Shown here piece after piece: positions 52,640 to 58,695 of a stretch of 64,000 nt of DNA. Where the stretch lies: NCBI GenBank assembly GCA_018823835.1, contig JAHJHT010000002.1:62001-126000 (forward strand), read 5' to 3'. The position numbers and the translations under genes were made by a program. A model generated the notes under the pieces. It ran no database searches. It saw only the letters and a list, made by a program, of their open reading frames with translations, and was not told the origin of the DNA. This stretch comes from Alphaproteobacteria bacterium. GTDB lineage: Bacteria > Pseudomonadota > Alphaproteobacteria > Rhizobiales > Rhizobiaceae. Every line of letters begins with the position of its first letter. The first letter of the stretch is position 1.

Positions 52640-54280
52640 CTACTCCCCGCGCAGCCCATGGATATGGCGCACGAGGCCGGCTGTCGAGGCGTCACTCGCG
52701 GCTGCATCCTCCTTGCCCTCGACGACGGGCAACAGGCCGGTCGCAAGCTCCTTGCCGAGCTCCACGCCCCACTGGTCGAAGGAGTTGATGCCGAACAGCA
52801 CGCCCTCGACGAAGACGCGATGCTCGTAGAGCGCGATCAGCCTGCCGAACGTATAGGGATCGAGCGTCCTGTAGATGAGGGTGACGGACGGGCGGTTGCC
52901 GGTGAAGACGCGGTGCGGCGCGATCTTCTCGACCTCGGTTGCGGCGATGCCCTTTGCGAGCATCTGGGCGCGCGCCTCCTCGAGCGTGCGGCCCTTCATC
53001 AGCGCGGCGGACTGGGCAAGCACGTTGGCAAGCAGCAGGTCGTGATGATGGCGCAGCTCCGGCTCGTGGCCGACGGCGGCGGCGAGAAACTCGACCGGGA
53101 TGATGTCGGTTCCCTGGTGGAGGAGCTGGAAAAAGGCGTGCTGGCCATTGGTGCCGGGCTCGCCCCAGACAAGCGGGCCGGTCGGGGTAGCCGCGGCAGC
53201 ACCGTCGAGCGTGACGCGCTTGCCGTTCGATTCCATGTCGAGTTGCTGGAGATAGGCGGGGAAACGCGAAAGGCGCTGATCGTAAGGGATGACCGCGCGC
53301 GCCGGATAGCCGCAGACGACCCGGTGCCAGTAGCCGACCAGACCGAGCAACACGGGGATGTTGCCGTCCAGCGGCGCGCTGCGGAAATGCTCGTCCATGG
53401 CATGCGCGCCGGTGAGGAAGGCACGGAAGTTCTCCGCGCCGACAGCGATCATGATCGGCAGGCCGATGGCGCCCCACAGCGAATAGCGGCCGCCGACCCA
53501 GTCCCAGAAACCGAAGACGCGGTCCGGCGCGATGCCGAATTTCGAGACCTTGTCGAGCGCGGTGGAGACTGCGGCGAAGTGCTTTGCCGTGGCGGCCTTG
53601 CCGAGCGCGGCCTCGATCCATTTCTGCGCCGTTTCAGCGTTGGTCATGGTCTCGACGGTGGTGAAGGTCTTGGAGGCAATGATGAAGAGCGTAGTCTCCG
53701 GGTCGAGCCCCTTCAGCGTGTCGTGGATATGCGCGCCGTCAACATTGGAGACGTAGTGGGCGCGCGGGCCGTCGTGCCAGGGGGCCAGCGCCAGCGTCGC
53801 CATGGCCGGGCCGAGATCGGAGCCGCCAATGCCGATGTTGACGATGTCGGTGATCTTCCTGCCGGTCGCGCCGGCCGCCTTGCCGGACCGCACGGCGTCG
53901 GAAAAGACGGCCATGGCGTCGAGCACGGCATGGACATCGGCGATGACGTCCTCACCGTCGAGCAGCAGCTCTGCGCCGCGCGGTGCGCGAAGCGCTGTAT
54001 GGAGAACCGCCCTGCCCTCGGTAATGTTGATCTTTTCACCAGAGAACATGGCGTCGCGGCGCTGCGGCACGCCGGCGGCGAGCGCCAGGTCGGACAGCAG
54101 GCGCATCGTTTCCCCGTCGACGGCGCATTTCGACCAGTCGAACAGCAGGCCGTCATCCTCGGCCGAGAACCGCTCGAACCTCTTTGGATCGGCTGCGAAG
54201 GCTGCGCGCATGTCCTTTGGCGCACGCGCATGGTGATCGCGCAGCGCCGCAAGCTGCGCCGAGGTCGTAGAAACTGTCAC
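52640..54280 (-). CDS. pgi: Glucose-6-phosphate isomerase
   Basis: [58 protein letters not shown]. Confidence 0.95.
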
Positions 54281-54526
54281 TGACGGACTCCATGATCGAC
54301 GGATTCCGGCGCACCTTAATGGAGATTGACGCCAACGCGAAGATTACATGTCCGGGCCTTGGCGCGAAATTCTGCAGCGCAGTAGGTCACGACCAGCTTG
54401 GACCAGATGCCAAGCATCATTGGTATAGATCATAACAATAAGAAAAATTCATTGGCTTAACGATTTGGACCAGCGCTACAAATCGATGGTCCAGAAATCC
54501 ACACCGGACGACGGGAGGAGCGCATC

Positions 54527-56017
54527 ATGCCACAGCGAAACGACGCCGCCATCTGGTCAGGCCTTTTCCACATCTCTGCGGAATCGGGCCAGACCCTGCA
54601 GGCGCAGATCCGGCAGGCGATCGTCGCCGCGATTCTCGACCGGCAGATAGCCGCCTCGATGCCGCTGCCCTCCTGCCGCATCCTGGCGGAAAAACTCGGC
54701 GTTGCGCGCGGCACGGTGGTGCTGGCGTTCCAGCAATTGGTGGACCAGGGCTTCCTGGTAGCACGCGAACGGCGCGGCCACTTCGTCAATCCGGAAGTGC
54801 TGGCAACGCCGGCCAAGCCGCATCAGAAGGCCGACAACGTCAACGAGATCGACTGGAAGGCGCGCCGCCAGATCGCGGCGAGCGACATGCCGGGACCGTC
54901 CAATCACCAGAACTGGATCAAGTCTTCCTATCCCTTCGTCTACGGCCAGTTCGATCCGGCGCTGTTCCCGACCGCCGAGTGGCGCGAGTGCAACCGCATG
55001 GCGCTGGCGGTGCTGGAAATCCGTAACTGGGCGGCCGACATGGTGGACCGCGACGATCCGCTGCTGATCGAGCAGATCCAGGCGCGCCTGCTGCCGCGGC
55101 GCGGCATCTTCGCCAATCCGGACGAGATCATCGTCACGCTCGGCGCGCAGAACGCGCTCTACATGCTGGCCCACCTGCTGATGACCAAGGGCTCCAAGGT
55201 CGCCATGGAGGACCCCGGCTATCCGGATGCGCGGTCGATCTTCCGGCTTGCTGGCGCCGACATCCACGCCACGCCGGTCGACAGCCAAGGCATTGTTACC
55301 AATGAGATTCCCAACGATGCCGGCTTCGTGTTCGTGACGCCCAGTCACCATTGCCCGACGATGGTGCCGCTGAGCACGGAGCGGCGCGCCGACCTTCTGG
55401 CGCGCGCCAGCCGCAACAACCAGATCATCATCGAGGACGGCTATGACAGCCAGCTGATCGACGAGGCGCCGCAGCAGGCGCTGAAGAGCCTCGATCGCTC
55501 GGGCCGGGTCATCTATGTCGGCTCGATGTCGAAGACGCTGGCACCGGGACTGCGGCTTGGCTACATCGTCGCCGACGCCGGACTGATCGCGGAACTGAGG
55601 GCGCTGCGCCGTTTCATGCTGCGCCATCCGCCGGCAAACAACCAGCGCGCGGTGGCGCTGTTCCTGTCGCTCGGCCACCACGAAGCGCTGGTCAGGCGGC
55701 TTTCCTCGGCCTTCGACGAACGCCGCAAGCGGCTGGTGCAGGCAATCACTGCCTTCCTGCCCGAATGGCGCTCGACGGATTCGGCAGGCGGCGCATCGCT
55801 GTGGCTCGAGGGTCCGCGCGGCATCAACGCCCGCGGTCTGGCCGAGGCGGCGGCGGCGCGCAGCGTCATCATCGAACCGGGCGACCGTTTCTTCGACAGC
55901 GCCAGCCAACCCTCGCGCTTCATGCGGCTCGGCATCTCCTCGATCGCGCTCCAGCACATCGAACCGGGGATTCGCGAACTCGCCACCGCGGCGGGGCGCC
56001 GGCCGGCGGCGGCATAG
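54527..56017 (+). CDS. MocR/PdxR-type regulator (GntR HTH + aminotransferase-like domain)
   Basis: LQAQIRQAIVAAILDRQIAASMPLPSCRILAEKLGVARGTVVLAFQQLVDQGFL; VIYVGSMSKTLAPGLRLGYIVA. Confidence 0.92.
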   Translation: MPQRNDAAIWSGLFHISAESGQTLQAQIRQAIVAAILDRQIAASMPLPSCRILAEKLGVARGTVVLAFQQLVDQGFLVARERRGHFVNPEVLATPAKPHQKADNVNEIDWKARRQIAASDMPGPSNHQNWIKSSYPFVYGQFDPALFPTAEWRECNRMALAVLEIRNWAADMVDRDDPLLIEQIQARLLPRRGIFANPDEIIVTLGAQNALYMLAHLLMTKGSKVAMEDPGYPDARSIFRLAGADIHATPVDSQGIVTNEIPNDAGFVFVTPSHHCPTMVPLSTERRADLLARASRNNQIIIEDGYDSQLIDEAPQQALKSLDRSGRVIYVGSMSKTLAPGLRLGYIVADAGLIAELRALRRFMLRHPPANNQRAVALFLSLGHHEALVRRLSSAFDERRKRLVQAITAFLPEWRSTDSAGGASLWLEGPRGINARGLAEAAAARSVIIEPGDRFFDSASQPSRFMRLGISSIALQHIEPGIRELATAAGRRPAAA

Positions 56018-56169
56018 CCGCCGGCACCACCCGGATTTCTGGCCCACCCCGCGGCAGACCGTGGCCCTATTTGCGGCCAATGGCTCGCGCATAGTCGGCG
56101 CAAGAGCGGGTCGATGCCGGTCCAGCCTGGACCAATCGGAACCAGCCTTCGCCACGGCAGGAGGGTCGC

Positions 56170-57759
56170 ATGACGGTTGTGTTGGAGCAGCAGGACGGCG
56201 CACCCGAAAAGACGACGCGCCGGTCCGGCGGTCGAGAGGCACGGCGCGCGATGCGCGCGGCACCGCTGGCCGACGACATCCGCCCGATCCGCGCCGGTCT
56301 CGAAGGCGGAACCTACAAGGCACTTGCCGATAACGATCTCGAGCGCGTGCACGAAGCGGTGCTGACGCTGCTTGAGACTGTCGGCTTCGCCAATGCCATT
56401 CCAAGCTGCATCGAGGCGCTCACGCGGTCTGGCGCCAGCCATGACGCGGACGGCCGCATCCGGTTTCCGCGTGCCCTCGTGCTTGAAACGATCAAGAACG
56501 CGGCCCGCAATTTCACGCTGCACGGGCAGGACCCGAAGCACGACATGCTGATCCAGGGCAAGCGCGTGCATTACGGCACGGCGGGCGCCGCCGTGCACCT
56601 GGTCGATGTCGAGAACCGCGAATACCGGGAATCGACGCTGCAGGACATCTACGACGCGGCGCGCATCGTCGACGGGCTCGACAACATCCACTTCTTCCAG
56701 CGGCCGATGGTGCCGCGCGATATCCCCGATCCCGCCGAGATGGACTTCAACACGCTCTATGCCTGCGTCATGGGCACGTCGAAGCATGTCGGCACCAGCT
56801 TCACCGTGCGCGAGAACGTCGCCCCGGCGCTGGAACTGCTCTATGCGATTGCCGGCGGCGAAGAGAATTTCCGCGCCCGGCCCTTCGTGTCGAATTCGAA
56901 CTGCTTCGTCGTGCCGCCGATGAAGTTCGCCGAGGACGCCTGCGGCGTGCTCGAGGCCTGCGTCGAGGGCGGCATTCCAATCCTGCTCCTGTCGGCCGGC
57001 CAGGCCGGCGCCACGGCGCCGGCGGCGATTGCGGGCGCGGTGGTGCAGGCGGTGGCCGAAGTGCTCGCCGGCCTTGTCTACGTCAATGCCATCGCGCCGG
57101 GGCACCCCTGCATCTTCGGCACCTGGCCCTTCGTTTCTGACCTGCGCACCGGCGCGATGTCGGGCGGTTCGGCCGAGCAGGCGCTGCTGACCGCGGCATG
57201 TGCCCAAATGGCGCAGTTCTACGACCTGCCGGGCGGCTCCGCCGCCGGCATGGCCGATTCCAAGCTGCCCGACATCCAGTCCGGCTACGAAAAGGGCATC
57301 ACCAATGTGATGGCCGGACTTTCGGGGCTCAACCTCGTCTATGAATCGGCTGGCATGCACGCCTCGCTGCTCGGCTTTTGCCTGGAAAGCCTCATCATCG
57401 ACAATGACATGCTTGGCCATTGCCAGCGTTGCGTGCGCGGCATTGAGGTGACGGACGCGGCGCTGTCGATCGACACGATCGCCGAAGTCTGCATGCAAGG
57501 GCCCGGCCACTATCTCGGCAACGAGCAGACGCTGAGGCTGATGCAGACCGAGTATTTCTACCCGGCGATCGGCGACCGCTTCTCGCCCAAGGAATGGAAC
57601 GAGAAGGGCAAGCCCGACATATTGAGCCGCGCCATCGCCGAGAAGAAGCGCATTCTCGCCGAACGGTTTCCCAGCCATGTGCCGAAGGCGATGGACGACA
57701 GGCTGCGGCTGCGCTTCGGCGACCTGATCAAGCTGCCGCGCGGCGGCATGGGCCACTGA
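56170..57759 (+). CDS. Trimethylamine methyltransferase (MttB)-family protein, non-pyrrolysine form
   Basis: HYGTAGAAVHLVDVENREYRESTLQDIYDAARIVDGLDNIHFFQRPMVPRDI ... GLSGLNLVYESAGMHASLLGFCLESLIIDNDMLG. Confidence 0.88.
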   Translation: MTVVLEQQDGAPEKTTRRSGGREARRAMRAAPLADDIRPIRAGLEGGTYKALADNDLERVHEAVLTLLETVGFANAIPSCIEALTRSGASHDADGRIRFPRALVLETIKNAARNFTLHGQDPKHDMLIQGKRVHYGTAGAAVHLVDVENREYRESTLQDIYDAARIVDGLDNIHFFQRPMVPRDIPDPAEMDFNTLYACVMGTSKHVGTSFTVRENVAPALELLYAIAGGEENFRARPFVSNSNCFVVPPMKFAEDACGVLEACVEGGIPILLLSAGQAGATAPAAIAGAVVQAVAEVLAGLVYVNAIAPGHPCIFGTWPFVSDLRTGAMSGGSAEQALLTAACAQMAQFYDLPGGSAAGMADSKLPDIQSGYEKGITNVMAGLSGLNLVYESAGMHASLLGFCLESLIIDNDMLGHCQRCVRGIEVTDAALSIDTIAEVCMQGPGHYLGNEQTLRLMQTEYFYPAIGDRFSPKEWNEKGKPDILSRAIAEKKRILAERFPSHVPKAMDDRLRLRFGDLIKLPRGGMGH

Positions 57760-57777: not shown

Positions 57778-58695
57778 CTACATGCCTGCCCGGGCGAGGT
57801 CTGCCCGCAGACGGGGTGCGGCGAAATCGAGAAAGGCCCTGAGCTTGATCGGCAAGGGCCCCTGCCCTGCATGGACAAGGCTGACCTGCCAGGGCTCGGG
57901 CTCGAAGTCCGCCAGCACGATCTCCAACTGTCCGGCCCGCGTGGCTGCCGCCACCTGGTAGGAAAGCACGCGCGTCACGCCGAGGCCGGCAGCAGCCGCA
58001 TCAATCGCCGCTTCCGCCGTGTTGACCACGAGCCGGGAGTGAACCGCCACCGTCTCTTGCGCCCTGCCCGAGCCGAACGTCCAGTTCGCCGGCGAGGACA
58101 GTCCGTCGAAGGTGACGCAGGCGTGGGATGACAAGGCTTGAGGCGTCCCGGGAACGCCGTGTTCCTCGAAATAGGCGGGACTGCCGCAGACGACGCGGCG
58201 GATATCGCCAAGCCTTATCGCCACAAAGCTGCTGTCCAGCAGGGCACCGATCCGCAAGGCGACATCGACATGGTCGTCAACGAGGTGCACCACCCGATCC
58301 GCCAGCACCAGCCTGATGTCGATCTCGGGATAGGTCGACAGGAATTCGTTCACCAGCGGCAGGACGTGAAGGCGGCCGAAGACGACGGGCGCGGTAACGA
58401 CAAGGTCTCCCCGGGGCGCGCTGTATTCGCCTGACGCGGCGCGCTCGGCCTCCTCGACATCGGCCAGTATTCTCTTGCAGGCGGCAACGTAGGACTGTCC
58501 CGCCTCGGTCAGCAGGATCTTGCGGCTCGAGCGGATGAACAGGCGTGTCCCTAGCAGCGCCTCCAGGTCGGAGATCTTTCGGCTCACCGTCGACAGCGGC
58601 GCGCCGACCTGTCGTGAGGCAGCGGACAGGCTGCCGGCATCGGCGACGGCCAGCAGCACCGACATTGCATCCAGGCGATCCATATAAACTCCCAT
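57778..58695 (-). CDS. LysR-family transcriptional regulator
   Basis: MDRLDAMSVLLAVADAGSLSAASRQVGAPLSTVSRKISDLEALLGTRLFIRSSRKILLTEAG. Confidence 0.93.
   Translation of the reverse strand: MGVYMDRLDAMSVLLAVADAGSLSAASRQVGAPLSTVSRKISDLEALLGTRLFIRSSRKILLTEAGQSYVAACKRILADVEEAERAASGEYSAPRGDLVVTAPVVFGRLHVLPLVNEFLSTYPEIDIRLVLADRVVHLVDDHVDVALRIGALLDSSFVAIRLGDIRRVVCGSPAYFEEHGVPGTPQALSSHACVTFDGLSSPANWTFGSGRAQETVAVHSRLVVNTAEAAIDAAAAGLGVTRVLSYQVAAATRAGQLEIVLADFEPEPWQVSLVHAGQGPLPIKLRAFLDFAAPRLRADLARAGM

Follow-up and report, generated by a model that had tools for sequence, protein, structure and literature searches.

A predicted two-promoter MocR regulon links mocR to a divergent MttB-superfamily gene in Mesorhizobium and related genera

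Does one MocR regulator control both its own gene and the mttB-like methyltransferase gene behind it, and on what kind of amine would that enzyme act? These questions are raised by a 64,000-nucleotide stretch of alphaproteobacterial DNA, here called the window, which belongs to a genome of 4.65 Mb (15 contigs, 88% complete). The two genes, mocR (54527..56017, plus strand) and the mttB-like gene (56170..57759, plus strand; its sequence-predicted ribosome-binding site AGGAGG at 56159..56164), are separated by 152 bp, and pgi (52640..54280, minus strand) is the divergent neighbour of mocR. A preliminary description had read TGGACCA motifs before both genes as the operators of a quaternary-amine regulon. 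Both start codons it gave were correct, and all of its motif positions were confirmed (TGGACCA at 54399-54405 and 54466-54472, TGGTCCA at 54487-54493 and GGTCCAGCCTGGACC at 56119-56133).

The 496-aa MocR protein has the domain order of the MocR subfamily, with a GntR winged helix at the N-terminus (PF00392, E-value 1.7e-10, residues 25-87) and a class I/II aminotransferase domain at the C-terminus (PF00155, E-value 6.8e-18, residues 180-451). GabR is its closest solved relative. The PLP lysine, K336, lies in SMSKTLAPG, and a matching motif occurs in 101/101 orthologues. MocR regulators characterised so far combine a lysine-bound PLP with an amine ligand, as in EnuR (PMC8739950).

Judged by its domain content, the 529-aa mttB-like protein is a divergent, non-pyrrolysine member of the MttB superfamily (COG5598/PF06253). 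The PF06253 MTTB domain spans residues 18-513 and scores 392 bits, while identity to the canonical MttB-family copies of the same genome is about 26%. A pyrrolysine trimethylamine methyltransferase is not indicated, as the gene has no in-frame TAG and the protein reaches 367.7 bits with TIGR02369, where the cut-off is 525 bits. Could it instead be an orthodox MtgB-type glycine betaine:corrinoid methyltransferase, which would make the locus a glycine-betaine regulon? Besides the domain score, this reading draws on the closest solved relatives, which include glycine betaine methyltransferase, on an MtgC-like corrinoid protein encoded in the genome, and on a clade member in one genome (G005) that lies beside choline and betaine genes. 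We nevertheless consider it unlikely. The glycine-betaine residues of DhMtgB, which were predicted from docking only (Y94, N199, R309, H345 and Y/F353; PMC6855144), correspond to G139, F246, G356, E392 and S399 in the window protein, with the same replacements in 36-37 of the 37 clade members, whereas all four other MttB copies of the genome keep the equivalents of R309 and H345. The score below the TIGR02369 cut-off also argues against it, and so does the position of the corrinoid gene, which adjoins a canonical paralogue; no corrinoid protein gene adjoins the mttB-like gene itself. That corrinoid protein (230 aa, MtgC-like, with its MttB neighbour at L227:7238-9762) has no PF02607 companion elsewhere in the genome, whose methionine synthase may thus be split and not a full-length MetH.

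The likely partners of the divergent enzyme were found through its orthologues in other genera (about 60-73% identity), which share their operons with two FAD/GcvT dehydrogenases, each about 815 aa long and akin to demethylases of the dimethylglycine/sarcosine type. Orthologues of both dehydrogenases are present in the window genome at C15:304217-306649 and 307924-310371 (83 and 78% identity), where they flank an aminotransferase gene without an mttB gene. Of 22 genomes with the mttB clade, 19 had the second dehydrogenase (C0B), versus 4 of 29 genomes lacking the clade (Fisher p = 3.7e-7, an optimistic value as the genomes are related); among MocR-bearing genomes the figures were 10 of 12 versus 0 of 8. 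G005 has mttB grouped with the dehydrogenase and aminotransferase genes, beside betBA (the choline dehydrogenase and betaine-aldehyde dehydrogenase genes), choline-transport and choline-sulfatase genes. Considering the operon partners, the phylogenetic profile and the G005 context, a role of the mttB clade in N-demethylation is likely. The quaternary-amine proposal therefore stands in part: the profile ties mttB to demethylase-type dehydrogenases, but the glycine-betaine residues are lost and an adjacent corrinoid protein is missing.

Two further MttB copies of the window genome (L228:4590-8853 and L229:5239-9354) each adjoin an FAD/GcvT-type dehydrogenase, and the pairing of these two enzymes thus recurs in the genome. 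The co-localised MocR and mttB genes of G005 and G098 were not taken as support for the regulatory link: those MocR proteins are 41-45% identical and lie beside taurine-like genes (xsc- and tpa-like, by eye).

Counting both strands, the window has 13 copies of TGGACCA, compared with a mean of 5.05 expected, and none of 100 shuffles reached 13. Four of these occurrences fall in the two short intergenic regions before mocR and mttB. The motif is thus real and above chance, but it makes up only part of an array of TGGnnYAa boxes, and every operator box in the window fits this form or nearly so. TGGACCA as the operator in itself was rejected as too narrow, being one form of TGGnnYAa, and its copy at 54399 is not universal. 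TGGACCA and TGGTCCA were noticed first because both fit the TGGnnYAa core on both strands. The boxes that had been missed, at 54421 and 54453 before mocR and at 56040 and 56062 before mttB, are more degenerate and better conserved. In about 100 related loci, the boxes at both promoters are ordered "-> -> <-".

Before mocR, the predicted MocR box 1, TGGTATAG (54421..54428, plus strand), lies 32 bp before box 2, TGGCTTAA (54453..54460, plus strand). Box 2 is the left arm of a 20-bp inverted repeat, TGG-N14-CCA, of which the predicted box 3, TTGGACCA (54465..54472, minus strand), is the right arm; box 3 contains the TGGACCA of 54466. Two outer boxes accompany this array. Box 4, TGGTCCA (54487..54493), follows 34 bp after box 2 and has the Mesorhizobium form CTGGTCCAG. 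Box 0, TGGACCA (54399..54405, plus strand), precedes box 1 by 22 bp, and although it is not universally conserved, a counterpart with the same spacing and relative place was found in two other genera (G016, L179; G008, L180). Alignment of representatives gave the conserved core as TGGCATAA, 32 bp start-to-start to TGGCGCAA-N4-TTGTGCCA, and then TGGTCCA.

The array before mttB is similar. Its predicted boxes are box 1, TGGCCCAC (56040..56047, plus strand), box 2, TGGCCCTA (56062..56069, plus strand), 22 bp further on, and the inverted box 3, TGCGGCCA (56072..56079, minus strand), which ends 10 bp before a -10-like hexamer. The latter belongs to GCATAGT (56089..56095, plus strand), the probable -10 element of mttB. 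A consensus scan found no sigma-70-like promoter. Downstream boxes, GGTCCAgccTGGACCA, occupy 56119..56134 of the mttB leader and include a TGGACCA at 56128-56134, which is the Mesorhizobium form. The conserved core here is TGGCATAT, 22 bp start-to-start to TGGCTCATAGGCTGTGCCA, followed by GCATAGT and by TGGACCA near the ribosome-binding site. The direct boxes are therefore spaced 32 bp apart at mocR and 22 bp apart at mttB, a difference close to one turn of the helix. Compared with its relatives, the window has more degenerate boxes, with TGGTATAG in place of the consensus at mocR box 1 and an inverted repeat of 18 instead of 19 bp at mttB.

To see how well these arrays are conserved, we took representatives of about 100 loci and aligned the sequences that precede mocR and mttB. 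The direct repeat of 32 bp was found in 92/101 mocR loci, the inverted repeat of 20 bp in 100/101 and box 4 at its 34-bp spacing in 84/101, while the direct repeat of 22 bp was found in 88/90 mttB loci. Since most of the 101 loci are from Mesorhizobium and are not independent, the counts were repeated with near-duplicates thinned. The inverted repeat before mocR then remained in 21 of 22 regions (0.29 expected) and the full three-box array in 13 of 22 (0.00 expected). Before mttB, the 22-bp direct repeat was retained by 12 of 13 representatives, compared with 0.03 expected in shuffles, and GCATAGT by 11 of 13, compared with 0.05. The intergenic length before mttB ranges from 62 to 504 bp across loci, and the boxes thus survive in DNA that is otherwise diverging.

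The arrays are also specific. Across 20 whole genomes with this MocR, a strict three-box pattern had 10 matches, all at a mocR or mttB promoter (the latter in two genera), whereas the reversed pattern had none. The window's own sites miss the strict pattern and need a relaxed one, and relaxed three-box patterns gave 34 matches genome-wide, no more than their reversed controls. When the relaxed matches were narrowed to the two functional spacings, the sites at mocR and mttB alone also had a convincing promoter position. For TGGTCCAnnnTGGACCA (up to two mismatches, whole 4.65-Mb genome), the best match, and the only one with a single mismatch, was the site before mttB. Boxes were present before 0/19 mttB orthologues located away from mocR, the full array was found at 0/10 distant MocR genes, and none in a promoter-like setting were found near the C15 dehydrogenase cassette or the other mttB copies. 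No further convincing sites were found genome-wide, and the proposed regulon accordingly shrinks to two transcription units, mocR and mttB.

Linkage of pgi, mocR and mttB was found in Mesorhizobium loci and in about ten other genera among the loci compared; almost all of the named relatives were Mesorhizobium. The mocR-adjacent mttB genes form one clade in the tree (support 100/99), and the mocR-mttB pairing therefore probably arose once. The pgi-mocR linkage is kept even without mttB: eight genera have a pgi-adjacent mocR, mostly with a recognisable operator, and no mttB orthologue (L012, L016-L018, L020 and L022-L024; genomes G016, G009, G033, G037, G036, G008, G040 and G019). This implies that mttB is not the sole purpose of MocR, or that MocR has another role.

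Several loci depart from the common arrangement. In G008 and G019, mocR is followed immediately by a CoxG-like gene (SRPBCC-looking, by eye), and in G040 such a gene lies nearby (L180, L181 and L182). One mttB orthologue (L057, genome G039) has an internal TGA stop and is probably a pseudogene or a sequencing error. The mttB gene beside mocR in genome G029 (L011 and L064) has an unusually high rate of evolution (62% identity, long branch), the -10-like motif has been lost from its promoter and the second dehydrogenase is absent; the pathway is apparently decaying there. In the window, a LysR-type gene (57778-58695) adjoins mttB; no locus compared from another genus had this arrangement.

Could MocR regulate only itself, with mttB expressed by read-through from mocR and the mttB boxes incidental or inherited? 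The two genes share a strand and are only 152 bp apart, and eight genera have retained mocR, mostly with a recognisable operator, but have no mttB, which fits autoregulation. However, the 22-bp direct repeat and GCATAGT are conserved before mttB despite the 62-504 bp range of intergenic lengths, and the strict pattern itself matches the mttB promoter in two genera, which makes this account improbable. MocR could alternatively be a PdxR regulator of vitamin B6 metabolism with mttB as a minor target, as it scores just over the cut-off of the NCBIfam PdxR model (325.8 versus 320 bits), but this is highly improbable given that the box arrays were found genome-wide only at mocR and mttB. Finally, binding of MocR to the boxes is a prediction and mttB is closely followed by a LysR-type gene, but operators of another regulator would hardly track mocR with or without mttB and be missing before mttB orthologues without mocR, nor show a layout typical of MocR (main text of PMC5320631), and among the loci compared only those of the window's own genus had the neighbouring lysR. 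That MocR controls both genes is thus well supported as a prediction: conserved arrays, linkage, genome specificity and negative controls all strongly favour the original proposal that one regulator governs itself and the methyltransferase.

We therefore prefer a joint explanation, which we regard as probable, in which MocR operates the mocR and mttB promoters, an MttB-type enzyme starts N-demethylation, and the dehydrogenases and aminotransferase finish it. The PLP-dependent MocR would bind the TGGnnYAa arrays of two direct boxes and one inverted box, with extra TGGWCCA boxes, at both promoters, boxes 1-3 being its presumed contact sites. At mttB, the inverted pair would abut the -35 region of a promoter with the conserved -10 element GCATAGT and no recognisable -35. 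Box 3 ending 10 bp before the -10, with no -35, suggests that MocR activates mttB. The presumed promoter of mocR is overlapped by its array, an arrangement that suggests repression of mocR by its own product. PdxR likewise acts in both directions from intergenic sites that its targets share, activating an operon and repressing its own gene, according to the main text of the MocR survey (PMC5320631).

The divergent MttB-superfamily enzyme would most likely carry out the first N-demethylation of an amine, and the FAD/GcvT dehydrogenases and aminotransferase at C15:304-310 kb would then complete the route. Primary amines are the presumed signals of PLP regulators, and a quaternary amine cannot form a PLP aldimine. 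The quaternary-amine proposal is weakened here too, as a PLP-type sensor needs a primary amine. If demethylation runs to completion, the primary amine that it leaves is a natural candidate for the MocR ligand, bound through PLP. Tentatively, the mttB clade may be a distinct demethylase for a new substrate, with a fixed G139/F246/G356/E392/S399 pocket, whose demethylated primary amine MocR senses as a PLP aldimine. If true, the first demethylation step would be under product-fed control in a pathway split over two loci.

These results define a predicted two-promoter MocR regulon with precise boxes, conserved in the Mesorhizobium loci examined and in several related genera. They point to an aerobic N-demethylation route comprising a divergent MttB, two FAD/GcvT dehydrogenases and an aminotransferase. 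In the available text of one report (PMC4302635), an mttB-named gene of Mesorhizobium alhagi (copy not stated) rose about 14-fold in 0.4 M NaCl, while its knockout had no salt phenotype and its function was reported as unknown. Identifying the mttB substrate would answer that standing question.

The predicted regulon appears to be a new local one of an established type: both the regulator and the layout of its operator have precedents. In the main text of the survey by Suvorova and Rodionov (2016, PMC5320631), MocR operators have 2-4 TGG-type boxes, most commonly laid out "-> -> <-" with two or three turns of the helix between the direct boxes, and the arrays described here agree both in the number of TGG/TGT boxes (2-4) and in their spacing by whole turns. 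The local GabR, TauR, PdxR and EnuR/EutR regulons share the same domains, autoregulation with an adjacent target and box layout, but the target here is an MttB-superfamily gene. No such target of a MocR regulator was found in the literature searched, which for this survey means its main text, where neither "methyltransferase" nor "trimethylamine" occurs; an earlier prediction is possible. MtgB of Desulfitobacterium and the MtgBCDE system of Ruegeria (PMC12478193) share the PF06253 fold family, the lack of pyrrolysine and a corrinoid protein in the genome. Unlike MtgB, the window protein has all predicted betaine-binding residues replaced and no adjacent mtgC, and the partners of its clade are instead FAD/GcvT dehydrogenases and an aminotransferase, as judged by gene linkage. 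Those dehydrogenases, of the dimethylglycine/sarcosine dehydrogenase type, are orthologous to the ones in the mttB operons of other genera, but in the present lineage they lie apart from mttB, which sits under predicted MocR control.
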